45,472 nt of DNA. Source: a virus. Both the position numbers and the translations under genes were made by a program. Under the pieces are notes generated by a model. The model was not told the DNA's origin. It did not search any database and was given only the letters and a program-made list of their open reading frames with translations. Positions 31,174-45,472 of this stretch are shown in pieces. Numbering within the stretch: position 1 is the first letter of the stretch; each line of letters starts with the position of its first letter. The DNA is taken from positions 1 through 45,472 of the IMG/VR virus record IMGVR_UViG_3300027979_000003; one strand, given 5' to 3'.

Positions 31174-31332
31174 ATGAATATAGAAATACATAATCTTGCC
31201 CTGCAAATTTATAATGATTTAAATGAAAAAGGAGCTAACTTAGGCAATTTTTCGATAAACATTATAGAATCTGCCATTGAAAAATTTGTCCAACAAGCAC
31301 AAATAAGGAGGAATCATGCTGAAAACAGTTGA
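31174..31332 (+). CDS. 52-aa helical protein of unknown function
   Basis: ATG 31174 follows GGAGG, which itself lies on the descending arm of a short hairpin (CTGAGC with GCTCGG). The protein starts MNIEIHNLALQIYNDLNEKG and ends VQQAQIRRNHAENS; it is mainly helical. Its 3' end overlaps the next gene by 17 bases and contains that gene's ribosome site (AAGGAGG). Family unknown. Confidence 0.55.
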   Translation: MNIEIHNLALQIYNDLNEKGANLGNFSINIIESAIEKFVQQAQIRRNHAENS

Positions 31333-32583: not shown

Positions 32584-32927
32584 TTGTTTATCTCCTTCTC
32601 TTGTTTTTCCAATTTCTCTTTTAGTTTCCGTAAATTCATCCACGGTTTATTTGCCTTTCCGCTACCCCAGCACACATCACATATCCCGGAAGTAACCATC
32701 TGCCCACCTGCACCGCCTCCCCAAAGTGAAGTATCGCCATAAGCACGAACTCCTGCACCACCACAAACAGAACAAGGGACATCCCCCATTTCGCGGTCAA
32801 TATCTCTCCATAAAAGCATGTCGTTATATATGATGTCCTGTCGCCGATTACAGCATTCCTGTAATTGCTTTACCTGTTCTTTTAGTTGAGCATTTTCTTC
32901 CAAAACATCAGCTTTTTCTCGTGTCAT
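32580..32927 (-). CDS. Coiled-coil protein with a DnaJ-type zinc finger (115 aa)
   Basis: ATG 32927 has GAGGTG six bases upstream and overlaps the previous stop as ATGA; an in-frame GTG three codons earlier is less likely. A coiled coil (ENAQLKEQVKQLQECCNRRQ) is followed by CSVCGGAGVRAYGDTS and CDVCWGSGKANKP, two CxxCxGxG pairs as in the zinc region of DnaJ. A basic helical C-terminus follows. It may bind unfolded protein or nucleic acid; it is not a DnaJ co-chaperone because no J domain is present. Confidence 0.65.
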   Translation of the reverse strand: MTREKADVLEENAQLKEQVKQLQECCNRRQDIIYNDMLLWRDIDREMGDVPCSVCGGAGVRAYGDTSLWGGGAGGQMVTSGICDVCWGSGKANKPWMNLRKLKEKLEKQEKEINK

Positions 32928-33112
32928 CGTTTCCACCTCTCCATACTAAAAACTAAATCCCTTGTATCAGTCCTCATATCAAATCCTATCTCCCATAAAT
33001 AATATCCATGAGATTTCATTACCTTGATTATGTCTTTATCTAATTCGGCATTTACTTCCCCTACGAGGGTCTTATAGCACAATCTTGCTTCACCCTTCTT
33101 TAGCTCAATCAT
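32924..33112 (-). CDS. 62-aa protein of unknown function
   Basis: Its start and stop both overlap neighbours as ATGA (33112 and 32924). The protein (MIELKKGEARLCYKTLVGEV, then KVMKSHGYYLWEIGFDMRTD) is mixed alpha/beta with one Cys. The tight stop-start chain on both sides shows that it is translated as part of the operon. No family recognised. Confidence 0.55.
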   Translation of the reverse strand: MIELKKGEARLCYKTLVGEVNAELDKDIIKVMKSHGYYLWEIGFDMRTDTRDLVFSMERWKR

Positions 33113-33279
33113 CGTTTCGCCTCCCCAAAAGTAACTTTATGACCTTTTTCGTCACGCACTTCTACAACAAAATCCTGCAAAGATGCGTGCTTAATTATGT
33201 CATAAAACCCTGATTTACGGTGGATTATTTTAAACAGTAGCACTCCCTTCTTGTCTTTTATGGTTACGGACTTAATCAT
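33109..33279 (-). CDS. 56-aa protein of unknown function, linked by ATGA overlaps
   Basis: ATG 33279 overlaps the upstream stop (ATGA) and its own TGA at 33109 overlaps the next start (ATGA). The protein starts MIKSVTIKDKKGVLLFKIIH and ends VRDEKGHKVTFGEAKR; it is beta-rich with alternating hydrophobic residues. The stop-start chain on both ends makes a real gene very likely. Function unknown. Confidence 0.65.
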   Translation of the reverse strand: MIKSVTIKDKKGVLLFKIIHRKSGFYDIIKHASLQDFVVEVRDEKGHKVTFGEAKR

Positions 33280-33506
33280 CTCTTAATGAACTCTTCTATC
33301 GTGTTTTCGCATTTTTTAAGACAAAGTATTGCCTGAATCTCAATTTCATGCAAAATTCGTTGTTTGGTTATACTTTCAGGCTTTAAAACTGATAGCATTT
33401 TTAACCGTGACGCACAATCACGGTAAGCATCGGCCTTGCCTTTAAGATACATCCGATCCATTAAAACAGCCATTCTATATTGTAAATCCTGTAAATTATT
33501 TTCCAT
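33276..33506 (-). CDS. 76-aa helical protein of unknown function
   Basis: The protein (MENNLQDLQYRMAVLMDRMY, then LKGKADAYRDCASRLKMLSV) is helical throughout, with three Cys and a Met-rich first helix, and no membrane segment. It overlaps the next gene as ATGA and follows the zinc-ribbon gene with a 9-base gap. A small helical adaptor or regulator is possible. Family not recognised. Confidence 0.55.
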   Translation of the reverse strand: MENNLQDLQYRMAVLMDRMYLKGKADAYRDCASRLKMLSVLKPESITKQRILHEIEIQAILCLKKCENTIEEFIKR

Positions 33507-33515
33507 AGTCCCCCC

Positions 33516-33731
33516 CTATCTTATACTGAAACTCTCGTTACTCCCACACTTCGGACACTTGATTTTGCTATCATCTGCGCCATAATACAGCCATTCATTG
33601 CCACACATATTGCAAGTCACGATCTTCGGCTGGCTCAGTCCTGATTCAGTCTTATCCATGTTTTGTTCCTCCCCATTGACTTTGCATTTTAACGTGCTTA
33701 ATAAAATGGTTGATAGGTGTTCCAAGTCCAT
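33516..33731 (-). CDS. 71-aa zinc-ribbon protein
   Basis: From ATG 33731 (GAGGAGG five bases upstream, inside the end of the methyltransferase gene) the protein is 71 aa. The C-terminal ribbon is CNMCGNEWLYYGADDSKIKC then PKCG (two CxxCG pairs about 20 residues apart). An internal ATG at 33659 also has a strong site (GGGGAGG) and would make a 47-aa ribbon-only form, so two products are possible. It likely binds DNA, RNA or a polymerase. Confidence 0.65.
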   Translation of the reverse strand: MDLEHLSTILLSTLKCKVNGEEQNMDKTESGLSQPKIVTCNMCGNEWLYYGADDSKIKCPKCGSNESFSIR

Positions 33732-34520
33732 TTATGCCTCCTCAGTATAATATACGGACTCAAAATCGATACCATACTCAATAACAACAATACGGCAACT
33801 TACACCAGTACCACTCTTCCGAAAAGAATCCTCTGGCAATTTTTCTGAATATCCACCAACTTCATCGAACCATTCACGAAACGCTTTTGCCTTCGTATTG
33901 CTTCGGAAGAAAGCAGCTTCACACATAACAGAAACAAGGACACCTTCATCTCTCAAAAACTTATGAGCGTGCATAACGTGAGAAATATCCTGCAATTCTT
34001 CAAATGGTGGATTCATTACAACAACATCGTACTTTCTTTCAGGTTTAATACTAAGAAAATCCTCATTTTTTACTTGATACCCCATTTCAGAAAGTGCTTT
34101 TGCCCGCTGTTCATTCTTTTCAACGCAAAAGATTTCTGCTCCGATTGACTTAACATGCTTGGCAATCGCACCCAAACCGGCAGACGGTTCTAACACAATA
34201 TCACCAGACCTTATATCAGCAAGTGCCAGCATTTTATTTACTACTTCGAGAGGTGTTTCAAAAAATCCATCACGCTCTATAGTTAAAGCTCCATTTTCCA
34301 GTAAACCAACAACCTGTAAGCGTGGATCGAGCTTAAACACATGAGCTTTTGCAGAACGATTCCACTTGCCGCCCATAGCTTTCAGAGCCTTATTTACACG
34401 CTCATAAAGTTTACGGTCAAGTTGACCGACAAGAACTCCATGCAAACCGTCATTGCTCCACTCCATTGCTTTTAAAACTTCAAGCACATCATCTTCAAAT
34501 TTCAATGTTTTTGTCAGCAT
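33732..34520 (-). CDS. Orphan DNA methyltransferase, N6-adenine type
   Basis: The protein is 262 aa from ATG 34520 (AAGGAG upstream); the open frame reaches 34571 but without support. Motif I is VLEPSAGLGAIA (about residues 109-120) and motif IV is MNPPF (about 169-173), the (N/D)PP(F/Y) signature of amino-methyltransferases acting on adenine or cytosine N4. The N-terminal ~95 residues (LDRKLYERVNKALKAMGGKW then NRSAKAHVF) are a separate domain often seen with phage methyltransferases. No matching restriction gene is present, so protection from host restriction or gene control is the likely use. Confidence 0.8.
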   Translation of the reverse strand: MLTKTLKFEDDVLEVLKAMEWSNDGLHGVLVGQLDRKLYERVNKALKAMGGKWNRSAKAHVFKLDPRLQVVGLLENGALTIERDGFFETPLEVVNKMLALADIRSGDIVLEPSAGLGAIAKHVKSIGAEIFCVEKNEQRAKALSEMGYQVKNEDFLSIKPERKYDVVVMNPPFEELQDISHVMHAHKFLRDEGVLVSVMCEAAFFRSNTKAKAFREWFDEVGGYSEKLPEDSFRKSGTGVSCRIVVIEYGIDFESVYYTEEA

Positions 34521-34587
34521 ATTTTTCTCCTTGTTTCTGCTTTCTTGTATTCGTATCGCTGTAACAGCCAATCAACCCATAAACTTG

Positions 34588-34797
34588 TCATGTGGCAAGG
34601 ACAACCATAATTTGGGGTTTTTTCATCCACTGTTTTCCCCATACCATAAGATCATTAACCGTTTCCATCCCGGTAAGCGGTTTTGCCTCTCTAAATGTCA
34701 ATGACTGGTCAAAGCCAACCTGATCGGTATGGTCAAGTATAGCCACATACCCGACCGCCGGGACACTGGCAGTTTCAACATCTTTACTGTTTTTCAT
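34588..34797 (-). CDS. 69-aa protein of unknown function
   Basis: The ribosome site is GGAGGTTTGGAG. The protein (MKNSKDVETASVPAVGYVAI, then TFREAKPLTGMETVNDLMVW) has no Cys and no membrane segment. It lies between the helicase part and the methyltransferase. No family recognised. Confidence 0.55.
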   Translation of the reverse strand: MKNSKDVETASVPAVGYVAILDHTDQVGFDQSLTFREAKPLTGMETVNDLMVWGKQWMKKPQIMVVLAT

Positions 34798-34837
34798 TCT
34801 CCAAACCTCCTTACTGCTAATTTGTAAAGTTTAATAC

Positions 34838-35881
34838 TCATCCTGATTCTCCCATGCCACAAGATGCTGTTTCGTTTTCTTTGCTGAGAATAGCTGGTAT
34901 CTGAAAAATATATCTATCATGCAGGAAATCTCTCTGCATTGAATCAGCCGCTATTTGTTCCAGTCTGGTAAAAACATCAATGTAAGGCATATTCTCTGCC
35001 CATTCCTCAGCCTGTTTTCTGGTTATCCTGACTTTCCTGAAAGCACCGTTACCATTCTTGGCCCTGAAAATAAAATCATCCTCTTCAGCTTTTTTATAGG
35101 ATTTGGCAAGATCATCATTTTCGTAATCCCTGATACACTTATCCCTGTTTACCCTGCTCGAAAACATCCAGTCAGTAAGCGGAGTAATCTTAGAGCCATG
35201 CTCAAGCCTGAAATGGAGTTCCTTACCCTGCATAGTCTCGTCAATAGACTGTTTTACTTTCGTCAGTGCAACCGCACACACAACGCCCCTTTGACACGCA
35301 CAGAGATAATCCACAGTCATATAGAGCCTGGCCTTCTCTGCCGTACCTTCGCCCCCACGTCCCATTGTCTGGTTTGATTTCTTCTGCAAAGCTATCATAG
35401 CAACCCCAGTCTTGAGGCAGTCATAAATATCTCTTATCTGGCTCGTAAGCATATAATATTGCCCCTCGGTTGGTTCGAGGTAGTCAATACAAGTCAGCCC
35501 GTCAGTATTGTAATTCTCAATAACAGTATCAAAGTTATCAGACTGTGAAGCAATCATGATATTGTCTTTCCAGAAATCAACCGGATCACCAAAAGATTTT
35601 ATTCTGCCCTTGATTTCACCAGCACCTTCCGAGACGAGAAACAGTTTCTCAAACTGGGAATTAATATTCAGTCTCAGTGTATTTAGAATCAAGGCTGTTT
35701 TTGCACTGTTGGTAGTTCCTGCCACAATGATGATTGACTTGGGCGGGATTGAGATTTTCTTATCAAGATCGAATGGCAGTTTTATAGGGAAGCTTTCTTC
35801 AGTCGGGAGGGATAAATCAATCCAGTCAACCTCAGTTGGGATAATATGGTAAACATTGTTCTTACAGGATCTTTCTTTAAA
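34838..35881 (-). CDS. RecA-like helicase/ATPase part of the primase-helicase, read in the -1 frame
   Basis: This frame carries a RecA-fold ATPase with Walker A AGTTNSAKTALILN, a Walker B-like acidic strand (LTCIDYLEP) and later conserved features. The only in-frame start codon is a GTG at 35725, inside the Walker A strand, so it cannot be an independent gene. Upstream of it 52 sense codons are open in frame and fit the family: FKERSCKNNVYHIIPTEVDW then LSLPTEESFPIKLPFDLD. These continue a winged-helix wing whose first half is in the 454-aa ORF. The two frames overlap at 35782-35881 and meet at U UUA AAG (35875-35881). A -1 shift there gives one 769-aa primase-helicase. Confidence 0.75.
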   Translation of the reverse strand, partial: FKERSCKNNVYHIIPTEVDWIDLSLPTEESFPIKLPFDLDKKISIPPKSIIIVAGTTNSAKTALILNTLRLNINSQFEKLFLVSEGAGEIKGRIKSFGDPVDFWKDNIMIASQSDNFDTVIENYNTDGLTCIDYLEPTEGQYYMLTSQIRDIYDCLKTGVAMIALQKKSNQTMGRGGEGTAEKARLYMTVDYLCACQRGVVCAVALTKVKQSIDETMQGKELHFRLEHGSKITPLTDWMFSSRVNRDKCIRDYENDDLAKSYKKAEEDDFIFRAKNGNGAFRKVRITRKQAEEWAENMPYIDVFTRLEQIAADSMQRDFLHDRYIFQIPAILSKENETASCGMGESG

Positions 35882-37146
35882 ATAATATTATTATTCTTAT
35901 TCTTATATTTATTATTAATATACTTAAGTAATATATAGGAGCGTTGCTGACGATGGCTCCGGGTTGTCAGGTTTAATTCCCGGTCAAGACTTTCGACAGT
36001 GAATGAACCCTTAGCGGTTCTAAGGAAAGCGTGAATGTCGTCAGCCAAATTTTGATTTCCCACAGTTTTTTCAACTGTCATTACTGTCATTCTTTTTGGC
36101 TCAACTGTCATTCTTTTGTCTTCAACTGTCATGTCCTTGTCATGTGCTGTCATTACTGTCATTCTTTTTTGTTCTATGTCATTAGTGTCATTTAAAATAT
36201 CGTCTGAAACGCTGATTTTACGTTCATCATCATACCTGTTTAGGTCTTCTAACTCAATAGGCAATACCCTGCCATACTCAATTCCGTTCTTTACTGTCTT
36301 CATGGCCTGGGCTACATTCGGAGTGCCACTTGCAATTATGGCTTGCTCGAACATAGACAAAACTTCCCCCTCGTCTAACCACTGGAGATAACCACCAATC
36401 AATCTTGATTGCTTGAGACGGGTTATGTGCTTATTCCCTTTTGGACACTCCAGTAATTTTCTGCAACAGGATTCAAGAACTTTCCTTGCATATTTTTCCT
36501 GGCCCTTTCCACCATTGCCATTAATCGGGCAATAAACAGGTTCAGGTGGGCTTGGAATAATGTCAGTCCATTGTTTGATATTAAAAAACTGAGGCTGAGG
36601 GTTGATCCATAGTTCAGGATCATGCGAAACGAAAGTAAGGCGTGATATATCCTTGCAGGCTGTGTCTATCTCAATACCGTAAAGTTCCTTGAAATACTCT
36701 TCAACTGCCGTATAAAACAGTTTATGATCTTCGTCATTCGAGATATTCTCTGCACGGACCCCAACTTTAAGCCCCTCATTAGATGGAGAACGAAAAATAA
36801 ACCATATATTCGTGTCTTGGATTAATAAGTTAAAGAGATTTCTAACTTGTTGAGGGATGTTATCCATATCCGGTATAATGAATCCGGTGGGCTGGATAAT
36901 CTTGGCATTTGCCCTGTGTGAGAATGTGCCGCCAAACGTGATGCCAGGAAGATTGCACTTTGCTTTTTTATATTCTTCTGACTTTACACCATGTTTTGAG
37001 ATAATATTGCGGACTGAATTTATTGAGGCTTTATACTTGTCTGACCTGATATGATCCAACACCTTTTGCCATGTAATTGTAGCAACAGGCTTGGGATTAA
37101 TACCCTTGAACCCTGAAATGGTATCGTTATTTACAAGAATTTCCAT
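35782..37146 (-). CDS. Primase N-terminal part (VirE_N/BT4734-like AEP), zero frame
   Basis: The zero-frame product is 454 aa. Residues ~60-200 match the BT4734-like (VirE N-terminal) archaeo-eukaryotic-type primase-polymerase domain: GGTFSHRANAKIIQPTGFI, DMDNIPQQV, IFRSPSNEGLKVGV, DTACKDISRLTFVSHDPEL. A helical PriCT-like part follows (HITRLKQSRLIGGYLQWLDE). Then comes a linker with four (R/D)MTV repeats (~329-362) and a winged helix (SFTVESLDRELNLTTRSHRQ). After residue 424 the frame leaves family-like sequence and stops at 35782, so the zero-frame end is probably a truncated minor form. It begins 20 bases inside the 60-aa gene, with AAGGAT upstream. Confidence 0.78.
   Translation of the reverse strand: MEILVNNDTISGFKGINPKPVATITWQKVLDHIRSDKYKASINSVRNIISKHGVKSEEYKKAKCNLPGITFGGTFSHRANAKIIQPTGFIIPDMDNIPQQVRNLFNLLIQDTNIWFIFRSPSNEGLKVGVRAENISNDEDHKLFYTAVEEYFKELYGIEIDTACKDISRLTFVSHDPELWINPQPQFFNIKQWTDIIPSPPEPVYCPINGNGGKGQEKYARKVLESCCRKLLECPKGNKHITRLKQSRLIGGYLQWLDEGEVLSMFEQAIIASGTPNVAQAMKTVKNGIEYGRVLPIELEDLNRYDDERKISVSDDILNDTNDIEQKRMTVMTAHDKDMTVEDKRMTVEPKRMTVMTVEKTVGNQNLADDIHAFLRTAKGSFTVESLDRELNLTTRSHRQQRSYILLKYINNKYKNKNNNIILKKDPVRTMFTILSQLRLTGLIYPSRLKKASL
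35875..35881 (-). other. Candidate -1 ribosomal frameshift site U UUA AAG
   Basis: The heptamer TTTAAAG is in the zero frame as T TTA AAG (X XXY YYZ). A -1 slip re-pairs the two tRNAs on TTT and AAA and continues GAA AGA TCC TGT, exactly the frame of the helicase part. The surrounding DNA is very AT-rich with AATAAG/AATAAT runs. No strong downstream hairpin was seen, so a true mutation or an assembly indel is the alternative. Confidence 0.6.
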
Positions 37147-37309
37147 TCTTTTTATCCTTATCAGTTCCTACTGCTTCCTCAACGTCTTCGAAGACAAACC
37201 TATACGCCCGCTTAATGTCTTTCTCAAGCTCAACGGTAAGTTGTCCTGTTTTTTGGAGATGTGCCAAGAATCTGGCTAATTGTCTGTTTCTGATTTTTTC
37301 AAGGTCCAT
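37127..37309 (-). CDS. 60-aa helical protein of unknown function
   Basis: The site AAGGA lies 7 bases before the ATG. The protein (MDLEKIRNRQLARFLAHLQK, then TGQLTVELEKDIKRAYRFVF) is charged and helical and overlaps the primase start by 20 bases. It may help primase loading. Family not recognised. Confidence 0.55.
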   Translation of the reverse strand: MDLEKIRNRQLARFLAHLQKTGQLTVELEKDIKRAYRFVFEDVEEAVGTDKDKKNGNSCK

Positions 37310-37334
37310 ATCATGTCCTTATTTGTATCTCTAT

Positions 37335-37364
37335 ATTTTAATATGTACAGGCAGAATATGTCAA
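37335..37364 (-). promoter_or_regulatory. Probable promoter at the right end of the insertion element
   Basis: TTGACA (37359-37364) directly adjoins the predicted IS right end (TTCAAC, 37365-37370) and is followed after 18 bases by TAAAAT (37335-37340). It would drive the 60-aa gene and the primase-helicase from near 37328. Whether the -35 box is native or created by the insertion is unknown. Confidence 0.5.
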
Positions 37365-37500
37365 GTTGAACTCCATAAAAGACATGGTTCTTCCTTCATC
37401 CGCTGGCATTAAGACACCACACGTCGAGAAGCACACCCGACAGTTCCTGCCGTGAATAAGTTCTGTTTCTGTAATCCGAATTTCAAAATATTCTGTGCAG
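37365..37500 (-). ncRNA. Candidate omegaRNA (TnpB guide RNA) scaffold
   Basis: In IS200/IS605-type elements the guide RNA spans the 3' end of tnpB and the right end of the element. Here the region after the RuvC-III motif, including GGGTGTGCTTCTCGACGTG and CCAGCGGATGAAGGAAGAAC, resembles such scaffolds and ends with TTCAAC at 37365-37370. The roughly 16-20 bases beyond it (37345-37364) would be the guide. Boundaries are approximate. Confidence 0.45.
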
Positions 37501-38566
37501 CAAGGTGATCCCTGTCATGGACTGTTCCGCACGCCTCACACGTCCATATACGGTCAGAGAGCGTTAAACGAGTATTCACCTTGCCACATGTACACATCCG
37601 GCTTGAAGGCTCAAATTTGCCTATCTCCAGATAGTTCTTGTCACTGTCTGCAAGTTTATACTGGAGCATTTGGTAAAAATCCCCAAGTCCTAAGTCAGAA
37701 ATACTCTGTGCAAGGCAGTGATTTTTTACCATGCCTTTAATATTAAGGTCTTCACACACAACCGTATCGAAACGGTTGACTATCCCGCTTGTCGTTTTGT
37801 GTAAAAAGTCCTTTCTCTGATTCGCTACGTGTTCATGTTGCAGCGCAAGATGAAGAACTGCCTTGCGTCTGTTTGCGCTTCCCTTCACCTTCCGGCTTGC
37901 CCTGCGTTGTAAAACCTTCAGCCTTCCGAGTGCCTGCTTTAAGTGCTTCGGGTTTTCTATCTCCGTTCCATCTGAAAGAACGGCAAACATCTTGATGCCT
38001 GTATCAATCCCGACCGCCGTTGCTTTACGGATCGCCTTTTGCTTCACCTTCTTGTCTTCTATTTCAACAGCAATACTCACAAAGAATTTTCCCGTTGCCG
38101 TCTTCTTGATTACAGCCGTTTTTATGGTCCCCTCGAATGTCCGGCTTATCCGTGTCGGTATCCACCCGAGTTTAGGGGCAAAAACCCTATTCTCATCAAA
38201 CTTGACCTTCACGTTTTGCGGAAAGCCTACCGTATGCCGTTTGTTATGTTTGCGTTTGAATTTCGGGAATCCGTGTTTTTCACGGAAGAAACGGGTAAAG
38301 GCTTTTTCCATATTCACGATGGACTGTTGAAGACTCTGAGCAACGGAAAGATTTAACCATTCATATTCAGGCTTCTTCTTTATCTGTGTCAATTCCGTCA
38401 TCAGGGTAAAGGCACTCATGGTCTTCTTGTCTTTTTGGTATGCCTCAATCCTTCGGGCAAGAGCCCAGTTATACACCCACCGGGCATTGCCAAGCATCTG
38501 TTCAAGCTGCCCCGCCTGCTTCTGATTCGGGTATATCCTGTATTCGTAACCACGTATTTTTGCCAC
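37409..38566 (-). CDS. tnpB: TnpB (RNA-guided nuclease, IS605 OrfB family)
   Basis: The protein is 385 aa from a GTG at 38566. It has the N-terminal helix-turn-helix (KIRGYEYRIYPNQKQAGQLE). The RuvC-like catalytic residues are present: Asp188 in VGIDTGIK, Glu272 in CEDLNIKG and Asp353 in HDRDHLAAQNI. The zinc ribbon reads SSRMCTCGKV...WTCEACG, so the first pair is CxC (Cys325, Cys327) rather than the usual CxxC, one residue short. The usual DRDxNAA has Leu in place of Asn. It is otherwise full length. It nicks or cuts DNA next to a target-adjacent motif under RNA guidance; the altered ribbon may reduce activity. Confidence 0.85.
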   Translation of the reverse strand: MAKIRGYEYRIYPNQKQAGQLEQMLGNARWVYNWALARRIEAYQKDKKTMSAFTLMTELTQIKKKPEYEWLNLSVAQSLQQSIVNMEKAFTRFFREKHGFPKFKRKHNKRHTVGFPQNVKVKFDENRVFAPKLGWIPTRISRTFEGTIKTAVIKKTATGKFFVSIAVEIEDKKVKQKAIRKATAVGIDTGIKMFAVLSDGTEIENPKHLKQALGRLKVLQRRASRKVKGSANRRKAVLHLALQHEHVANQRKDFLHKTTSGIVNRFDTVVCEDLNIKGMVKNHCLAQSISDLGLGDFYQMLQYKLADSDKNYLEIGKFEPSSRMCTCGKVNTRLTLSDRIWTCEACGTVHDRDHLAAQNILKFGLQKQNLFTAGTVGCASRRVVS

Positions 38567-38572
38567 GTTTAG

Positions 38573-38602
38573 AGTTTATCATAATTCTATAAAGAATGTC
38601 AA
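38573..38602 (-). promoter_or_regulatory. Promoter of tnpB
   Basis: TTGACA (38597-38602) is followed after 18 bases by TAAACT (38573-38578), preceded by TGA. An overlapping TATGAT lies only 13 bases from the -35. With TAAACT, transcription would start at the GTG codon itself, so tnpB might be read from a nearly leaderless mRNA; no ribosome site is visible. Confidence 0.5.
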
Positions 38603-38730
38603 GTCTTTTTAGAAAATAAATAAATATGGGGCTCAATAAAGGTTTTGAGCGGACGGGATGAAGCTCCGCCGTTCAAAACGCCTCCATTAATATTTTAGCT
38701 CTTGGGATGAAGAGCCTGGCCTCTGCCTAA

Positions 38731-38759
38731 ATGCCCCGTCCGCTTGCGGCGGGGAGCAT
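38731..38759 (-). repeat. Left-end subterminal hairpin of the insertion element
   Basis: CCCCG-t-CCGC-TT-GCGG-CGGGG forms a long G/C-rich stem with one bulged base, flanked by ATG...CAT. Such imperfect hairpins at the left end are what IS200/IS605 transposases bind. A further hairpin (GCTCTT with AAGAGC) lies near 38698-38715, and an imperfect GTTTTGA...TCAAAAC stem lies near 38645-38682. Confidence 0.65.
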
Positions 38760-38966
38760 TCACAAATCTTTTCTTGCTTTGCATAAGCGTTCTTTAATTT
38801 CTTCAGTACCTTCAGGTAGTAGTTTCCCGGCCGCATATATTAGTTCTTTCGCTAAGTCTATTGACTCCAGTTCATCAAGCAACCCACTTGAAATATTGGT
38901 ACTATCAGCCATTACAACTAATTCCATATATGTTAAGTTATGCTTTACATCAAAACAAAAGATCAT
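38760..38966 (-). CDS. 68-aa acidic helical protein, possibly shortened by the insertion
   Basis: ATG 38966 has GGAGG five bases upstream. The protein starts MIFCFDVKHNLTYMELVVMA and ends EEIKERLCKARKDL. It is acidic and helical (LLDELESIDLAKELIYAAGK). Its stop codon abuts the left-end hairpin of the TnpB element, so the original gene might have continued. It lies in the early operon. Family not recognised. Confidence 0.6.
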   Translation of the reverse strand: MIFCFDVKHNLTYMELVVMADSTNISSGLLDELESIDLAKELIYAAGKLLPEGTEEIKERLCKARKDL

Positions 38967-38979
38967 TTATGCCTCCTTT

Positions 38980-39138
38980 CTATTGATTCATTAACCAATC
39001 CTCGATCATCAAAGCCGCTCTCCATAGTTCGTTTCCGTGCTTATACATCTCTCCATCATCACAGGTACACATCAAGTTTGAAGCTCGGCACATGACTATC
39101 TGTGCTTCCAATAATGCTTCTATTATTTCTTTATCCAT
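38980..39138 (-). CDS. 52-aa acidic helical protein with CxC
   Basis: ATG 39138 has GGAGG four bases upstream (AAAGGAGGAATT). The protein starts MDKEIIEALLEAQIVMCRAS, has LMCTCDDGEMYKHG in the centre and ends RAALMIEDWLMNQ. Two helices flank a Cys-containing turn. The next gene (38966) follows after 13 bases. Start site and coding composition are good; function unknown. Confidence 0.6.
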   Translation of the reverse strand: MDKEIIEALLEAQIVMCRASNLMCTCDDGEMYKHGNELWRAALMIEDWLMNQ

Positions 39139-39158
39139 AATTCCTCCTTTATTTTTCC

Positions 39159-39305
39159 TTTAAGCAACTCTGGGCGGGGCGACAGTAACCATTGTGCACA
39201 TACCATCATTACCGCTGCCCTTTCCAGATCAGGCCGTTTGCAAAGTGACCCTCACTGTTCCGGTTTTACAATTTCGGCTGTCAGCACCCCCCACAGTTGC
39301 TTAAA
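39159..39305 (-). repeat. Long inverted repeat, first structured block of a non-coding gap
   Basis: Arms at 39159-39185 and 39278-39305 pair over ~24 base pairs (11 perfect bases TTTAAGCAACT, then three mismatches and one bulge). The loop of ~92 bases contains a smaller hairpin (AGTGA-CCC-TCACT) and a TGTGCACA palindrome. There is no credible gene. The block lies in the transcribed leader of the 52-aa and 68-aa genes and is visibly more G/C-rich than its surroundings. It could be an RNA element, an origin or a small non-autonomous mobile repeat. Confidence 0.6.
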
Positions 39306-39470
39306 ATTGTTATACGCCCCGTTTCTCATTTTCACCGTGTATTATGATATACTTTATCTGTACTCTCATCTGGCCCTTGAGACCTAAACCCTGTAAGTGT
39401 CGTCTCAAGCCGTACCCAGGGTTAGAATGGCCAAGCGCACGGGATCATCCACTGACGGGCGTATAACAAT
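39306..39470 (-). ncRNA. Second structured block, with inverted repeat ends and possible pseudoknot
   Basis: Arms at 39306-39322 and 39455-39470 pair over 16 bp with one bulge (ATTGTTATACGCCC with its complement). Inside, 39371-39375 pairs with 39429-39433. Within that, stem a (TTGAGAC 39377-39383 with GTCTCAA 39402-39408) interleaves with stem b (AACCCTG 39387-39393 with CAGGGTT 39417-39423), the pattern of an H-type pseudoknot. No gene of useful length fits; the best readings are 25 and 34 codons without ribosome sites. The functional strand is assumed minus because the operon is leftward. Confidence 0.5.
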
Positions 39471-39535
39471 ACTTTTCTCCTTTATGTCTCATAAATCAGA
39501 AAATATGAGTCACAAGTTAGTTTGTTGCTAATAGA

Positions 39536-39757
39536 TTACTCATAATCTCCCATGCACCATTCCCACTCTACCGAAGCCCCACAACAATCAGTTACCGGAT
39601 CACCCCATGTATCAGGATAATGAGTACCTGACAGGCCATGAGTAACATAATGACCTGCATAGTCAAACTCGTTCTGTAACGCAACAATCTTGCAGAGTTG
39701 CCCACATTCAGGACAGACAAAACCTTCTGGTGTATCATACTCAGGTATTTTTCTCAT
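39536..39757 (-). CDS. 73-aa cysteine-rich protein
   Basis: ATG 39757 overlaps the previous stop as ATGA; the longer frame to 39793 is within the upstream gene. The protein has PEGFVCPECGQLCKIVAL, then HYVTHGLSGTHYPDTWG, CCGASVEWEWC and a short acidic tail. Six Cys and several His could bind one or two zinc ions, as in a zinc ribbon. It is the gene just upstream of the structured non-coding gap. No family recognised. Confidence 0.6.
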   Translation of the reverse strand: MRKIPEYDTPEGFVCPECGQLCKIVALQNEFDYAGHYVTHGLSGTHYPDTWGDPVTDCCGASVEWEWCMGDYE

Positions 39758-40014
39758 TCCGTAACATCCAGTGGTGTACCACAAGTTTGGCAAAACTTGA
39801 TTTCAGGTTGTTTCACTGATTCAGTAGATACTCTATACAAATTTCTTTCCAAGATTTTGATACTGATTTCATATTCAATATCGTTAAGAGTATCGAACAT
39901 GAAAAGAATTTTGAGACTCATTGCTTTGGTCGGCACATCAAACCTGCATAGTGGCTGGATAGCTCGTTCCCATACCTTAAGTTCATCTATTGACTTGTCT
40001 TGCCAGTAATTCAT
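39754..40014 (-). CDS. 86-aa protein ending in a CxxCG motif
   Basis: The protein starts MNYWQDKSIDELKVWERAIQ, is helical in the middle and ends FCQTCGTPLDVTE. A single CxxCG pair near the end suggests half of a zinc ribbon, perhaps completed by a partner. A GAGGG site lies upstream; ATGA overlap with the next gene. Family not recognised. Confidence 0.55.
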   Translation of the reverse strand: MNYWQDKSIDELKVWERAIQPLCRFDVPTKAMSLKILFMFDTLNDIEYEISIKILERNLYRVSTESVKQPEIKFCQTCGTPLDVTE

Positions 40015-40015
40015 T

Positions 40016-40363
40016 TTATTTTCCCTCTAATACTGCTTTTTCAATTTCATTCCATTTTGCAATGTCTTGCTCACCCCATTTTTGCCAGTCTATCCATAAT
40101 TGTTTATAGTAAGGCAGTCTTTCTTGCGGGGTTAATTCACTCCAGCATTTTTCACAAAGAGGAAAGCATCCAGAGTCATTATTATAACGAGTACTATGAT
40201 TCTGGGTAAATTTCCAAGGCATACCACAGCGATAACACCGACTATAATTGGGAGCTATCAAACTTAATACAGTCCCCTTTACTTGGCGAACAGGTAATTT
40301 GTCTGCATATAAACAACCACATATTAAGGAAATGCCAATTAATATAAAGATAAATGTTTTCAT
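40016..40363 (-). CDS. Exported cysteine-rich protein, possible lipoprotein (115 aa)
   Basis: Residues 1-20 form a signal peptide (MKTFIFILIGISLICGCLYA). ICGC could be a lipobox, with Cys17 lipidated. The mature part has RCYRCGMPWKFTQNHSTRYN, then GCFPLCEKCWSELTPQERLP, four or five Cys that fit a zinc ribbon, and an acidic helical end. I recall the CYRCG...CFPLCEKCW...LTPxERLPYY pattern from other phage small proteins. Its start overlaps the upstream membrane protein as ATGA. Possibly superinfection exclusion or lysis related; unproven. Confidence 0.65.
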   Translation of the reverse strand: MKTFIFILIGISLICGCLYADKLPVRQVKGTVLSLIAPNYSRCYRCGMPWKFTQNHSTRYNNDSGCFPLCEKCWSELTPQERLPYYKQLWIDWQKWGEQDIAKWNEIEKAVLEGK

Positions 40364-40518
40364 CTCGTTCTCCTTATTATTTTACCTATTCCTTTTCCTA
40401 TCCCTACCCCTATATACGTCACCAGATACATTGACACAGCCATCCCTGCTATGGCAACCAGAAGAAGCCCTGATATAACAAGGCCGGTATCAGGATGTTG
40501 GGTGATTTTTTGTGTCAT
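40360..40518 (-). CDS. 52-aa membrane protein with one transmembrane segment
   Basis: ATG 40518 overlaps the end of the upstream gene by 29 bases in another frame, and the TGA at 40360 overlaps the next start as ATGA. After a short polar start (MTQKITQHPDTG) residues 13-42 are hydrophobic (LVISGLLLVAIAGMAVSMYL), followed by Gly/Lys and a basic end (RRTR). Its ATGA link to the exported protein suggests joint action at the envelope. Confidence 0.6.
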   Translation of the reverse strand: MTQKITQHPDTGLVISGLLLVAIAGMAVSMYLVTYIGVGIGKGIGKIIRRTR

Positions 40519-40672
40519 TCTTCCACGGCCATGTAAACATTAAAAATCCTATTATAGTAATAAAGAAAAAACAAAGGTATGTAAACAGGTCCATGTCTTT
40601 AACTGGAATTGTCCATAATGCAAGTGAACCCCAAATAAACCACATTAATCCTATTTTTTCCCGTTGATTCAT
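40490..40672 (-). CDS. 60-aa membrane protein with two transmembrane segments
   Basis: The start overlaps the upstream stop as ATGA. Two hydrophobic helices are visible (IGLMWFIWGSLALWTIPV and LFTYLCFFFITIIGFLMF) with a short polar turn and a basic/polar end. Together with the following one-helix protein and the exported Cys protein it forms an envelope gene trio, which could serve exclusion or lysis. No family recognised. Confidence 0.6.
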   Translation of the reverse strand: MNQREKIGLMWFIWGSLALWTIPVKDMDLFTYLCFFFITIIGFLMFTWPWKNDTKNHPTS

Positions 40673-41010
40673 CTTATTTTTCCCCCTCCCTTTCTCCCAA
40701 CTCTTCTCCGTAATTGTTGCTGATATTTTCTTGTTAAATAAGGATCATGGAAGTGAGGGTTCTTTGAAACATCAATATTCCACGTTTTTGGTCTTTTCTT
40801 CCATCCATCACATACTCTTTTCATTCCCCAGTCATGTAATTGCGATAAATTACCAACTCCCATTGTTCTTCCTAAAAGTAAACATTCAGAGTTATTAATA
40901 TATTTTTCATGAACAACTCTGAAATATCTGCAATTAGCACAGGATTTATCCTGAAATCTCAGATGGACTATGTTTTGTAATTCCGTTGAGGACTGGTTAA
41001 AGGTTGTCAT
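40669..41010 (-). CDS. 113-aa cysteine-containing protein
   Basis: ATG 41010 has GGGGGAG three bases upstream; the frame extends to 41046 without a start signal. The protein has SCANCRYFRVVHEKYINNSE, then CLLLGRTMG and VCDGWKKRPK; CxxC plus two Cys is a small metal-site pattern shared with other early proteins here (CGACKYF at 42300). It ends basic (QQLRRRVGRKGGGKIR), fit for nucleic-acid binding. It is the first sizeable gene of the leftward early operon. Confidence 0.62.
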   Translation of the reverse strand: MTTFNQSSTELQNIVHLRFQDKSCANCRYFRVVHEKYINNSECLLLGRTMGVGNLSQLHDWGMKRVCDGWKKRPKTWNIDVSKNPHFHDPYLTRKYQQQLRRRVGRKGGGKIR

Positions 41011-41086
41011 TTTCTCCCCCTCCCTTTCCTGCCCGCAAACCGGCAATTCCGGTCTTTGGGCAAATTGTTGGTTTACGGTTTCTCAT
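40997..41086 (-). CDS. Possible 29-aa leader peptide at the start of the leftward transcript
   Basis: An ATG at 41086 lies exactly where the promoter at 41093-41121 would start transcription. The frame (MRNRKPTICPKTGIAGLRAG, then GGGENDNL) ends just inside the next gene, whose start codon it overlaps by 14 bases. It is basic and Gly-rich. It could be a leaderless regulatory peptide coupled to the 113-aa gene or a chance frame. Confidence 0.3.
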   Translation of the reverse strand: MRNRKPTICPKTGIAGLRAGKGGGENDNL

Positions 41087-41092
41087 GCTTTA

Positions 41093-41121
41093 ATCATACA
41101 TACAATCTTTTTTATTGTCAA
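41093..41121 (-). promoter_or_regulatory. Leftward early promoter
   Basis: TTGACA (41116-41121, minus) is followed after 17 bases by TATGAT (41093-41098), a strong sigma70 promoter. It would start near 41086 and drive the leftward early operon. Its -35 box lies in the same inverted repeat as that of the rightward promoter. Confidence 0.8.
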
Positions 41122-41137
41122 CGGTTTTTGTTGACAA
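41115..41137. promoter_or_regulatory. Operator-like inverted repeat spanning both -35 boxes
   Basis: TTGTCAAC (41115-41122) and GTTGACAA (41130-41137) form a perfect 8-bp inverted repeat with a 7-base centre. Each half contains the -35 hexamer of one divergent promoter. A dimeric repressor bound here would block both. The adjacent helix-turn-helix gene at 41165 is the natural candidate. Confidence 0.65.
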
Positions 41138-41158
41138 GATAAAAATTAGGTATAGAAT
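41131..41158 (+). promoter_or_regulatory. Rightward early promoter
   Basis: TTGACA (41131-41136) is followed after 16 bases by TAGAAT (41153-41158). Transcription would start close to 41165, which is the first base of the next gene's ATG, so the first gene may be leaderless. The -35 box shares an operator-like inverted repeat with the leftward promoter. Confidence 0.72.
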
Positions 41159-41164
41159 AAAGCC

Positions 41165-41416
41165 ATGAATAAAAAAACTATAGAACCACGCAAAGATAGG
41201 TCCGTAACATCGGCTATGATGAGGCGTCTCATCAAACATTATGGAGGGGGAATGCATGGCCCAGCCAACAAAAAAGCAAGAATAAAATTAGGGAAATTGC
41301 TTAAATGTGATCCCTCGTGGGTGTTTAAAATAGCTCAGGGGGAAAGAACGCCGGGTCTTTATCCTTGGATGGTAATGCTAAGAAAAATTAAAGAGATAGA
41401 GAAGAATGATTCATAA
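41165..41416 (+). CDS. Helix-turn-helix regulator, possibly from a leaderless mRNA
   Basis: The protein is 83 aa. Residues ~38-62 (ARIKLGKLLKCDPSWVFKIA) look like a Cro/CI-type helix-turn-helix, with QGERTPGLYPWMVMLRKIKE as the following part. There is no ribosome site; the ATG lies 7 bases after the -10 box, fitting a leaderless start as known for lambda cI. It directly adjoins the operator-like repeat, so it probably controls the two divergent early promoters. Overlaps the next mini-gene. Confidence 0.72.
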   Translation: MNKKTIEPRKDRSVTSAMMRRLIKHYGGGMHGPANKKARIKLGKLLKCDPSWVFKIAQGERTPGLYPWMVMLRKIKEIEKNDS

Positions 41417-41489: not shown

Positions 41490-41723
41490 ATGAATATTAT
41501 GAATCTCGTTGAAATGGTTGAGGAAGATCAACACCAATCGCCGTGCAGGTTTGGGAATATTGTGGATGGGCATAGTTGTTACTGCCACCATGACCAAGGA
41601 CCACGTAAATGTCCAATTTGGAGACATTATGGTGAACAACCCGACAAATGGCACAATCATGGTGATTGGAATAAAGAAGATTGGGATGGTGGTTGCCGGT
41701 TCTTTAAAAGGAGAAAAATGTAG
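41490..41723 (+). CDS. 77-aa Cys/His-rich protein
   Basis: The protein starts MNIMNLVEMVEEDQHQSPCR, then SCYCHHDQGPRKCPIWRHYG and ends WDGGCRFFKRRKM. Five Cys and many His and Trp suggest metal binding. A competing frame at 41509-41760 is less convincing because it lacks this pattern and overlaps the next gene more. GGAG lies nine bases upstream. The last base of its stop is shared with the next start (GTG, 41723). Confidence 0.6.
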   Translation: MNIMNLVEMVEEDQHQSPCRFGNIVDGHSCYCHHDQGPRKCPIWRHYGEQPDKWHNHGDWNKEDWDGGCRFFKRRKM

Positions 41724-42106
41724 TGAAAAGAAAGATCACAAAAAGTGCTTACAAGATTGATGTTAAAAATAGTAACGCACTTAAAGATGAAGAAATCAAA
41801 ACAAAATTGGCTCTTCGGTTTTTCCCCGATGTTCAGCCTGATGTTGATATTCCATTATCGTATAATGAAGGGATAAAAAATGGCTGGCTCTATAATGAAT
41901 GTTCAATGCGTGTTGAAAAGGCTTGTACTTCTTCTACAACTCATAGTTGTTGGGGATGGGACAAAACAACAACACAAAACCCTCGGAAACTTTATTCTAC
42001 AGAAAAGAAAGCATACGAGGCTCTTTTGTGTGAAATGGCTAAAAAATTTGCTCTTGCAATGCGCTCAGTTGAACGGCGTATGGAAAACTGTGATATTCCC
42101 AATTAA
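41723..42106 (+). CDS. 127-aa protein of unknown function
   Basis: Starts at a GTG that overlaps the previous TAG by one base (TAGTG), with GGAG upstream. The protein has a basic start (MKRKITKSAYKIDVKNSNAL), a Cys/Trp-containing centre (CSMRVEKACTSSTTHSCWGW) and a helical end (KKAYEALLCEMAKKFALAMR). No motif recognised. It is part of the rightward early/recombination operon. Confidence 0.55.
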   Translation: MKRKITKSAYKIDVKNSNALKDEEIKTKLALRFFPDVQPDVDIPLSYNEGIKNGWLYNECSMRVEKACTSSTTHSCWGWDKTTTQNPRKLYSTEKKAYEALLCEMAKKFALAMRSVERRMENCDIPN

Positions 42107-42115
42107 GGAGGAGCT

Positions 42116-42307
42116 ATGACTTTAAAAGAACTGCAAATAAAAATGGGTAACGTATTATATCAATATTGGGAAGAGTTGTCAGAGCCTAAGCCTACACAAA
42201 CTCAGTTTATGTATGGGCCTTATAGCCTGTTAAATGACGTGGGCAGGTGGATTGAAGATCAGGGAGAAGTAGAGCATCAGATGAATGGTGGTAAAGACAA
42301 TGGATAG
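42116..42307 (+). CDS. 63-aa protein of unknown function
   Basis: The site AAGGAGGAGCT is strong. The protein (MTLKELQIKMGNVLYQYWEE, then YGPYSLLNDVGRWIEDQGEV) is helical and aromatic-rich with no Cys. It overlaps the next gene start by 8 bases. Family not recognised. Confidence 0.55.
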   Translation: MTLKELQIKMGNVLYQYWEELSEPKPTQTQFMYGPYSLLNDVGRWIEDQGEVEHQMNGGKDNG

Positions 42308-42626
42308 GCCGTCATGTGGGGCATGTAAATATTTTAAAGACGTAGGTTATCGGGATTGGGGCGAATGTACAGCACAAGTCCCTTGCTGGGCGTGGAGCGA
42401 GTACATAGAAACAACACGACAAGTATTTCGAGACGGAAGCACAACCGATTTTGCGCCAGAATGTGAAGCATATACGCCAAACGCCATGCTTGACCAGTCT
42501 GACATAGAAACTTTAGTCCTAAGACTGTTATTAGAAGATGAAAACACCTTCGCTCCCGAAACTAAAGAAGTCATGGACAGGTGGAAAGGGCAAGTCATGG
42601 AGAAATTTAGGATTAAAAAAATGTAG
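42300..42626 (+). CDS. 108-aa protein with a CxxCKYF metal-site motif
   Basis: ATG 42300 (MDRPSCGACKYFKDVGYRDW) is preferred over 42285, which gives five extra residues; neither has a strong ribosome site, and coupling to the overlapping upstream gene is likely. CGACKYF...GECTAQVPC...PECEAY gives five Cys, a pattern seen in many small phage proteins that may hold an iron-sulfur cluster or zinc. The C-terminal half is acidic and helical. Function unknown. Confidence 0.6.
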   Translation: MDRPSCGACKYFKDVGYRDWGECTAQVPCWAWSEYIETTRQVFRDGSTTDFAPECEAYTPNAMLDQSDIETLVLRLLLEDENTFAPETKEVMDRWKGQVMEKFRIKKM

Positions 42627-42643
42627 GTAGAAAGGACAAAAGT

Positions 42644-42865
42644 ATGGATACTGAAGAAATTAAAGAAGTAGCCGAAAAGATTAAGAACCTTACACTCAAT
42701 CTCGAATCGAACGATGCTCGTGAGGTAGCGAAGCGGTATCTTATGTTAGACTTCATTGAGAACCAAGTATGCAACATTATTTGGACTCCTGCAGCGATTG
42801 GTCTTGCGTGGGTACTCTATGCAGCCGGTAAGTGGCTGATTGCCCTTAGCAATTACTTAAATTAA
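42644..42865 (+). CDS. 73-aa protein with one membrane-like helix
   Basis: AAAGGA lies upstream. A charged helical N-terminal half (MDTEEIKEVAEKIKNLTLNL) is followed by a hydrophobic segment (TPAAIGLAWVLYAAGKWLIA). It could be membrane-anchored, facing the cytoplasm. No family recognised. Confidence 0.55.
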   Translation: MDTEEIKEVAEKIKNLTLNLESNDAREVAKRYLMLDFIENQVCNIIWTPAAIGLAWVLYAAGKWLIALSNYLN

Positions 42866-42880
42866 GGGGCAAAAAAGAAT

Positions 42881-43234
42881 ATGGCTAAGAAATACAGGGT
42901 GGCTCGAACCAGATGCGGAGGCCAGTGGACAGAAAGCAGGTTTTGGGGTTTTATCCGGTCTGCGTTAAGAAGTGCTACACGAAAGTATCCACCAAAATGG
43001 CAAGCAAAACAAGCGGCAAGCAGACCCTCACAATTACTTGATAAGAGAACAAAAAAAGAATATCAATGCGCTATATGCCTTAAATGGTTTAAGGGTGCGG
43101 ATATTGAAATGGATCATATAAAGCCAGCCGGGGAACTTAGTTGTTACGAAGACTTGCCTGAATTTGTCAAGAATTTGTTTTGTGAATCAGAAGGGTTCAG
43201 GTGTCTTTGCAAGGAATGCCATAAAGGGAGGTAA
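42881..43234 (+). CDS. HNH endonuclease
   Basis: The protein is 117 aa. A basic N-terminus (RTRCGGQWTESRFWGFIRSA) precedes the HNH core: CAICLKWFKGADIEMDHIKP (first Cys pair, then the DH catalytic motif), ending EGFRCLCKECHKG with the second Cys pair and the final His. This is a compact zinc-stabilised HNH nuclease as often found among phage recombination genes. It lies upstream of a PD-(D/E)XK nuclease in the same operon. Confidence 0.82.
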   Translation: MAKKYRVARTRCGGQWTESRFWGFIRSALRSATRKYPPKWQAKQAASRPSQLLDKRTKKEYQCAICLKWFKGADIEMDHIKPAGELSCYEDLPEFVKNLFCESEGFRCLCKECHKGR

Positions 43235-43238
43235 TCCG

Positions 43239-43589
43239 ATGAAATTCGAGAATATAAAGGTTGGTGATGTTGTTGCAATGAGAGGTTTTGGCAGTCTTAT
43301 AAAATGCAAAGTAACTCGAATCTTCCTGACCTCATTAGAGGTTGATAACAGCTGTGCAAGATATTCTATCGAAACAGGAAATGAAGTAGATGAATATGGA
43401 AGTTTTTTTAGGACTAAAATTGAGCCTTGGACTAATGCACATGATGAAGAGTTAAGAAAAGAAGAGGATTGGAAAACAAAACGTGTCCTTGTCAGAAAGA
43501 TAGAGAATTATGACTGGTATTCACTGACCGTTGACAAATTGAAAAAAGTAATTTCTGCGCTCAAAGAAATAGGGGTTGATGTGGAATGA
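43239..43589 (+). CDS. 116-aa protein of unknown function
   Basis: ATG 43239 has GGGAGG upstream; the open frame from 43164 is inside the HNH gene. The protein starts MKFENIKVGDVVAMRGFGSL, a small barrel-like beta start (VGDVVAMRG), followed by mixed beta (KCKVTRIFLTSLEVDN) and a helical end (LTVDKLKKVISALKEIGVDV). It overlaps the exonuclease start as ATGA. Family not recognised. Confidence 0.6.
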   Translation: MKFENIKVGDVVAMRGFGSLIKCKVTRIFLTSLEVDNSCARYSIETGNEVDEYGSFFRTKIEPWTNAHDEELRKEEDWKTKRVLVRKIENYDWYSLTVDKLKKVISALKEIGVDVE

Positions 43590-44440
43590 ACATAACTAAT
43601 CGCCTGAATTTGCCCTTGCCGATTGTCCGTGCTGTAACCAATGATCCTTATAGCCAACGGGGGGACATAAGTATTACGGGTCTTATTCAACCGCCACGGA
43701 TCAGGCAACTTGCTATCCGGCACGGGAATAATATAACCATAGATGCCTCAGACCGGATATGGCCATTATTAGGCTCTAATGTTCATTACATTCTGGAACG
43801 TGCCCAAGTAGGTAATGCTCTTCAGGAAGAACCTTTGGCTATGGGGATGTTTGGGTGGACTGTAACTGGCAAACCAGACTTGTATTATGATGAAATTCTC
43901 TATGATTTCAAAGTAACATCTGTCTGGTCATTCATTAATGGCGTTAAAACTGAATGGGAATCTCAGTTGAATTGCTATGCAGGATTATTACGCTACTATG
44001 CATTCGAGGTAAAAGCTCTTGCCATTATTGCCATACTCAGGGATTGGTCAAAATATCAAGTATGCAAGTCAGCAAATTATCCAAAGACACAGGCAGTTGT
44101 TATGTCAGTCAAATTATGGGATGCAGAAAAGACTTGGGAATATATGAAAGAACGCATAAAGATACATCAAGAAGCTGAACACATGGTAGATACAGATTTG
44201 CCGATATGCACGGCTGAGGAACGGTGGGAACGTCCTACACAATATGCCGTAACCATAAAGGGGCAGAAAAGAGCGAAGAGATTATTGTCCACAATGGAAG
44301 AAGCCCAAGAATGGGGGGAGGAAAATATCAAAGACAAGAAATGGGAAATAATTACAAGAACAGGTGAATCTGTAAGGTGCTGTCATTATTGTGATGTGTC
44401 AAAAATATGTGGATTATTCCAAAATAAGGAGGATATGTAA
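43586..44440 (+). CDS. PD-(D/E)XK exonuclease, RecB/Cas4-like
   Basis: The protein is 284 aa. Nuclease motifs: GSNVHYILE (His67), GKPDLYYDEILYDFKVT (Asp98, Asp107 and Lys109) and SQLNCYAG (Gln127), the order GxxxH, (G)xPD, DxK, QxxxY of the RecB/Cas4 group. A C-terminal cluster CCHYCDVSKIC, plus an earlier Cys (ICTAEERW), could hold an iron-sulfur cluster as in Cas4/AddB-type nucleases. It likely resects DNA ends for the annealing protein encoded just downstream. Confidence 0.82.
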   Translation: MNITNRLNLPLPIVRAVTNDPYSQRGDISITGLIQPPRIRQLAIRHGNNITIDASDRIWPLLGSNVHYILERAQVGNALQEEPLAMGMFGWTVTGKPDLYYDEILYDFKVTSVWSFINGVKTEWESQLNCYAGLLRYYAFEVKALAIIAILRDWSKYQVCKSANYPKTQAVVMSVKLWDAEKTWEYMKERIKIHQEAEHMVDTDLPICTAEERWERPTQYAVTIKGQKRAKRLLSTMEEAQEWGEENIKDKKWEIITRTGESVRCCHYCDVSKICGLFQNKEDM

Positions 44441-44441
44441 T

Positions 44442-44759
44442 ATGGAATGGATACAAGTAAATGATTATGATGCCGTTGCTATAGATATTTACAAAGAGAA
44501 GGTATCTATTGTGGGAGGGCAAGTTGCCAAGAATGATGCAATCTATACCAAATGGGCAATAGCGTCTCAGTATGATAGAGATGCCGGTGGCCCTGTACCA
44601 ATGACTAAAAAAGATGGCAGTTATCAGGCCATGCCGGTTAAGGTCATGCTTGGCAATGCACAACAGGCGTTGGATAATCTCGATAAGCTGAGAGGACAGA
44701 TTTTAGAGCTTATCGGGCAAACACCGGAAAATACGGAAGATCCAGACGTTCCCTTCTGA
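44442..44759 (+). CDS. 105-aa protein with SSB-like acidic C-terminal tail
   Basis: ATG 44442 has AAGGAGG upstream. The body (MEWIQVNDYDAVAIDIYKEK, then QYDRDAGGPVPMTKKDGSYQ, then a helix LGNAQQALDNLDKLRGQI) is not a clear OB fold. The end TEDPDVPF is like the DDDIPF tail by which single-stranded DNA-binding proteins recruit partners. It lies between exonuclease and annealing protein, so it may bind DNA and recruit them. Function inferred. Confidence 0.55.
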   Translation: MEWIQVNDYDAVAIDIYKEKVSIVGGQVAKNDAIYTKWAIASQYDRDAGGPVPMTKKDGSYQAMPVKVMLGNAQQALDNLDKLRGQILELIGQTPENTEDPDVPF

Positions 44760-44769
44760 GGAGGAAGAT

Positions 44770-45472
44770 ATGAGTACAGAAGAAAATATGAAATATTGGG
44801 AACAACTTAAACAGCCACCTAAAGATGCCTTAAAGAAAATTACTGGTGGCAGAATAAGTGGAATGACCGACATACATCCTCAGTGGAGAATGAAGGTTGC
44901 TACTGAAATCTTTGGCCCATGCGGAACAGGGTGGAAATATGAAATAGTTAAATTGTGGTTAGAACCACCCATAGACAGCCAAATATGTGGTTTTGCTACA
45001 GTCAACTTTTATTACAAGGTTGATGGAGAATGGAGCGAGCCTATTCCGGGGATAGGCGGATCAAAATTATTATACAAGGAAAAAGACGGCCCATACGTCA
45101 ATGATGAAGTCTATAAAATGGCTGTTACTGATGCCCTGTCAGTAGCCATGAAGGCTCTTGGAGTGGGAGCCGATGTTTATGCAGGACGTTGGGATGGTTC
45201 TAAGTATAAAGACATACCAAGTGGTACTAATGCTACACCTGATACGCAAAAGGTTACTAACCAGAAGAAACAACCTGCGCCACCGATTAAACAACCTACG
45301 GCTGATGAGATTATTGATCTTGCCAGTAGTATGATGACCGAAATAGAACTTAAAAAATTATATCGGGAAAAGAAATCATCCATTAACAAGTTATCAAAGG
45401 AAGATAAAGCAAGAGTAATGAACGCATTTACTAACCGCAAACTTTATCTTCTGCCAGACGAAGCGAAGGATG
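44770..45472 (+). CDS. Single-strand annealing protein (Rad52/Sak-like), 3' end missing
   Basis: At least 234 codons are present; the gene runs off the right edge. The site GAGGAGG lies upstream. The pattern LKQPPKDALKKITGGRISGM, then DIHPQWRMKVATEIFGPCG and GWKYEIV, with NDEVYKMAVTDALSVAMKAL and GVGADVYAG, is typical of the Rad52/Sak family of phage recombinases. Downstream is a Pro/Lys-rich linker and a helical C-terminus. It would anneal single strands made by the exonuclease of the same operon. Confidence 0.85.
   Translation, partial: MSTEENMKYWEQLKQPPKDALKKITGGRISGMTDIHPQWRMKVATEIFGPCGTGWKYEIVKLWLEPPIDSQICGFATVNFYYKVDGEWSEPIPGIGGSKLLYKEKDGPYVNDEVYKMAVTDALSVAMKALGVGADVYAGRWDGSKYKDIPSGTNATPDTQKVTNQKKQPAPPIKQPTADEIIDLASSMMTEIELKKLYREKKSSINKLSKEDKARVMNAFTNRKLYLLPDEAKD

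Follow-up and report, generated by a model that had tools for sequence, protein, structure and literature searches.

In phage lambda, the start points of PRM and PR lie about 82 bp apart, and the PRM transcript of cI is leaderless. For PY54, RACE placed the first base of both the cI and the cro mRNA at the AUG, and PY54 Cro was found to bind one 16-bp palindromic site, while the gaps between cI and cro measure 116 bp in PY54, 81 bp in N15 and 80 bp in phiKO2 (PMC4488713). A leaderless transcript is also described for the controller gene of C.AhdI, and the C and M promoters of EcoRV are both divergent and overlapping (PMC5333194).

Here we describe a divergent control region at positions 41086-41165 of the window, by which we mean the whole stretch of DNA analysed, an IMG/VR virus record of 45,472 bases. 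An earlier note on this DNA had singled out two strong opposed promoters, an inverted repeat formed by their -35 hexamers, transcription starts on ATG codons and a size of about 80 bases. In view of the published precedents from PY54, N15, phiKO2, AhdI and EcoRV, none of these features is new as such; the size holds as a measurement, but is not special beside the N15 and phiKO2 gaps (PMC4488713).

Results and Discussion

The terminase, portal and major head genes occupy the minus strand of the window, and early genes flank the control region on both sides (Table 1). No tRNA was found in the window, and an Rfam search of the control region returned nothing beyond one chance match. Within the leftward early block, a TnpB-like transposase gene (37409-38566, minus strand) has its closest GTDB match in a Poribacteria MAG, and as this match reaches just 38 %, no host was assigned. 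The primase-like protein of the same block (35782-37146, minus strand) carries a recurring MTV motif (KRMTV, DMTVED, KRMTVEP, KRMTVMTVEKTV). A second HTH-like protein of 113 aa is encoded at 31316-31657 on the plus strand; it is 95 % identical in the relative contig G001, its Cro/C1-type Pfam matches stay below threshold, and it is possibly a further regulator belonging to a plus-strand cluster that adjoins the late genes.

Table 1. Positions of promoters, repeats and genes in and around the divergent control region.
Feature	Position	Strand	Remark
Leftward promoter	41093-41121	-	-35 TTGACA 41121-41116, 17-nt spacer, -10 TATGAT 41098-41093
Rightward promoter	41131-41158	+	-35 TTGACA 41131-41136, 16-nt spacer, -10 TAGAAT 41153-41158
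Inverted repeat TTGTCAAC-N7-GTTGACAA	41115-41137		perfect; mainly the two -35 boxes
Mirrored 14-nt stretches TTGACAATAAAAAA / TTGACAAGATAAAA	41121-41108 / 41131-41144	- / +	12/14 alike
83-aa HTH-like protein	41165-41416	+	first gene of rightward block; predicted leaderless start
29-aa frame	40997-41086	-	ATG at predicted leftward start
113-aa Cys-containing protein	40669-41010	-	GGAGG before ATG; first convincing gene of leftward block
Rightward early block	41490-45472	+	3' of HTH gene: small proteins, nucleases, recombination-type protein
HNH endonuclease	42881	+	rightward early block
PD-(D/E)XK-type exonuclease	43586	+	rightward early block
Small protein	44391 (frame)	+	rightward early block
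phrog_7838 recombination-type protein	44770	+	rightward early block
Leftward early block	32242-41046	-	small Cys-rich proteins, TnpB-like transposase, primase-like protein, methylase

Both promoters are of the sigma-70 type and stand back to back, each scoring 11/12 overall with a -10 box that matches in 5/6 positions. When divergent promoters of at least 11/12 each with -35 boxes within 40 bp were sought, this pair was the only one of its kind in the window. Shuffling produced none, whether the whole window (60 dinucleotide shuffles) or the local 250 bp (3000 shuffles) was randomised. Seven bases past the respective -10 box, positions 41086 and 41165 are each the A of an ATG, so the predicted starts do fall on start codons as had been noted.

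The sole close relative found, L002, encodes an HTH protein 92-93 % identical to that of the window and keeps both promoters at 11/12. Its leftward promoter has a 16-nt spacer, and its rightward promoter reads TTGACA-16-TATGAT, the -10 box having been altered by several changes (TAGAAT to TATGAT). Only 10/249 nt of the HTH gene differ between the two, the promoter block having changed faster, and the left flank of the control region differs as well. A search with a DNA pattern of the region's left half recovered L002 again together with chance matches only, and no comparable promoter pair was seen among relatives of the 44770 protein. With scores of 11/12, absence from all shuffles and retention in L002, the promoters are real, and the compact divergent control region proposed earlier is supported.

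The gene of the 83-aa protein lacks a Shine-Dalgarno sequence, while good ones precede many other genes of the window, and its -10-to-ATG gap is 6 nt in both the window and L002 despite the changed -10 box and intervening bases. From this we infer that its transcript is probably leaderless, starting at or beside the A of the ATG. Translation might also begin inside the gene, at Met30, from a GGAGGGGGA-ATG (41242-41254, plus strand), a start that is not kept in L002, where the codon is ATA.

The 83-aa protein found no match in Pfam or NCBIfam and a weak repressor match in PHROGs (phrog_6223, E=0.009). Its predicted model, built from two sequences, comprises four helices at a pLDDT of 75.6, and the best fold matches are mostly Cro/C1-type (XRE) proteins including restriction-modification controllers, with C.BclI on top and C.AhdI and C.Esp1396I lower down, all of them weak (E > 0.1). 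A sequence search of solved structures came back empty, and one relative was found in IMG/VR (L002), none in phage records and none in GTDB genomes. We regard the protein as an HTH-like orphan whose HTH assignment is weak.

On the leftward side, the leaderless peptide suggested by the earlier note is not supported. Behind the leftward promoter of L002 sits a DNA methylase gene with GGAGG before its ATG, followed by a 39-aa Cys-rich ORF whose start and the stop of the methylase overlap as ATGA. The ATG and the residues PTICPKTG of this ORF recur in the window's 29-aa frame, a copy that is missing about 40 nt and is frameshifted. Comparison of window 40997-41086 with L002 9266-9909 shows that the divergent methylase is absent from the window while the promoters are retained, and it is because of this absence that the ATG of the 29-aa frame falls at the predicted start. 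The leaderless left peptide thus seems to be incidental to the gain or loss of a gene. Leaderless initiation, claimed for both sides, stands as a prediction for the HTH gene and is not supported for the left frame, a shifted remnant. The gene starting at 41010 on the minus strand has a strong Shine-Dalgarno sequence, and its 113-aa product has a relative with 72 % identity on the L002 contig, to which the left gene as query also led.

The left gene showed no DNA-binding match in Pfam or PHROGs. Searches for integrase, resolvase and S24 repressor (PF00589, PF00239 and PF00717), whose controls worked, found none of them in the contigs G000 and G001, both of which may be fragments. A two-repressor switch of the lambda type is not supported, as no second repressor was found and the left gene, which is not DNA-binding by these tests, is a methylase in L002. 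The likeness to lambda cI/cro drawn by the earlier note accordingly survives as a general resemblance to a phage switch, without the two repressors, the integrase or the S24 repressor.

Distant phages sharing the exonuclease

With the exonuclease encoded at 43586 as anchor, 80 further loci were fetched. Of the 18 contigs searched, 16 carry a gene of the P22_Cro family that matches PF14549 above the gathering score; it lies opposite the recombination genes, with promoters standing back to back in the region between. Where it comes first behind its own promoter, the -10-to-ATG gap is 5-8 nt at 11 of 15 loci, which are mutually related, so that these gap counts are not independent events. The motif TTNAC-N4-GTNAA occurs in the region of 33/40 loci in 1-3 copies, at a density of 1.78 per kb compared to 0.09 elsewhere (20 times), and repeated copies are mostly 19-24 bp apart. 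At the clearest loci, each -35 box forms half of its own outward-reaching candidate operator, which leaves the mirror repeat between them as a side effect. In none of the 18 contigs tested, the complete Baldr genome included, was a tyrosine integrase detected. The set of motifs looks like an OR-type operator array within a Cro-only control region. This side result may outweigh the main one, as it provides a directly testable control region of that kind, including one in the cultured Pelagibacter phage Baldr. Candidate operator copies upstream of the P22_Cro-type gene were noted in L009 (three copies at ~6318-6376, with the Baldr protein WDQ27615.1), L031, L036, L040, L065, L077 and others.

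Homology of the window's HTH protein to the P22_Cro proteins was tested and rejected, with no PF14549 match and an hhalign probability of 0.6 %. The TTNAC-N4-GTNAA motif does not occur at the control region of the window. What the exonuclease-sharing phages have in common with the window is the layout, not the regulator.

Proposed mode of control

In our reading, the region probably controls early transcription in both directions in an uncultured tailed phage and is governed by a Cro-like autoregulator. Host RNA polymerase, presumably with host sigma-70, would read the two promoters in opposite directions, yielding a leftward transcript for the small genes together with primase and methylase and a rightward transcript for the nuclease and recombination genes. 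Leftward translation would probably begin from the Shine-Dalgarno site at 41010 and not at the ATG at 41086, and the rightward transcript would start at or beside the ATG of the Cro/C1-like HTH protein, probably without a leader. Small HTH genes standing first behind a divergent promoter typically encode autoregulators. Judging by its position and by the relatives, the HTH protein is most likely Cro-like and would build up early, bind at least one site that overlaps the -35 boxes, and lower its own promoter and probably the opposite one too. Because the protein is not detectably related to the P22_Cro proteins and their operator motif is absent here, the Cro-like mode of action is assumed purely by analogy. 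In this locus, an uncultured phage group has an early control region with clear limits, and its regulator is an orphan.

It is unlikely, in our estimate, that both early promoters act constitutively and have no operator nearby, with -35 boxes and UP-element-like A/T tracts that only recruit host polymerase while the HTH protein works elsewhere, for example in the late region. Such an arrangement would fit a central repeat that occurs in a single copy in the window and the finding that no operator motif is significant alone, but the distant positional counterparts carry clear candidate operators, and the first-position HTH gene points to an autoregulator.

We consider it improbable that the inverted repeat acts, as in the earlier note, as one palindromic operator over both -35 boxes, at which a single HTH dimer would shut off both promoters with both transcripts leaderless. 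The perfect repeat formed by the -35 hexamers was found as described: its 8-bp arms match throughout, each contains one TTGACA box, both predicted starts lie on an ATG, and L002 has an equivalent of the left frame's ATG and first codons. The symmetry, however, arises automatically from TTGACA boxes diverging on opposite strands. The extra pairs T41115-A41137 and C41122-G41130 appear in 15 % of local shuffles with the hexamers fixed (P=0.15), and the A/T complementarity of the outer arms is equalled in 8 % of such shuffles. In L002 the repeat reads TTGTCAAC-N7-ATTGACAA, the inner C-G pair having become C/A with both promoters retained. With the extra symmetry at chance level and the inner pair lost in the relative, a central operator is unsupported beyond the promoters themselves. 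Furthermore, the half-site centres are 15 bp apart, a wide spacing for a dimer of HTH proteins, the left frame is shifted with its L002 counterpart lying behind a methylase that has its own Shine-Dalgarno sequence, and the distant phages of the same geometry have their candidate operators outward of each -35 box. The palindrome GTCAAAGTTTTGAC at 27186-27199 lies immediately upstream of the terminase gene and has GTCAA/TTGAC in common with the switch; comparison of the two, as suggested earlier, identifies it as a different site, with a 4-nt spacer versus 9 nt. A relative is needed as a test before a mirror repeat built from two -35 boxes is called an operator.

A better candidate than the central palindrome is given by the mirrored 14-nt stretches, which are alike beyond the hexamers at P=0.052, are unchanged in L002 and are possibly two separate operators. 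If there is any site, it is more likely to consist of two mirrored TTGACAAKAWAAAA copies, one at each promoter, than of one palindrome in the centre. We give little credence to the further step of an orphan HTH family running a minimal one-regulator switch, with mirrored half-operators in both -35 boxes and both starts leaderless.

Least probable of all appears a circuit of the C-protein kind, in which the HTH protein would time a divergent DNA methylase as in restriction-modification: the methylase of L002, the fold matches to C.BclI, C.AhdI and C.Esp1396I and the precedents of the leaderless C.AhdI transcript and the divergent EcoRV promoters (PMC5333194) speak for it, but the promoters are kept in the window without a divergent methylase, no GACTNNNAGTC-like C-box (up to 2 mismatches) lies within 41086-41165, a restriction enzyme was not seen, and the fold E-values are weak.

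Comparison with described control regions

The Cro-like early control region that we favour can be set beside four groups of described or newly compared loci. The controller regions of AhdI, EcoRV and Esp1396I resemble it in their small Cro/C1-type HTH protein, and the divergence from a methylase in EcoRV recalls L002, whereas the window is without restriction enzyme, C-box and divergent methylase. The immB regions of PY54, N15 and phiKO2 are compact and divergent as in the window; these phages are temperate and use two repressors, whereas the window has one HTH gene, with neither a CI partner nor a lysogeny gene found. Unlike at lambda OR, there is no second repressor, recognisable triple operator or integrase in the window and L002, but the region is like PRM-PR in its back-to-back promoters about 80 bp apart and the small HTH regulator on one side. 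Among the P22_Cro regions, those of Pelagibacter phage EXVC032P Baldr (L009), L084, L090 and L037 are the ones to compare. Their P22_Cro gene points away from the recombination genes, whereas the HTH gene of the window reads with them, and they possess PF14549 proteins and candidate operators, the window protein forming a separate orphan family. Several of them have -35 boxes 7-9 bp apart with the regulator gene in first position, and they share with the window an HTH gene with a short -10-to-ATG distance, 5-8 nt in many of them, as well as nuclease and recombination genes on one side.
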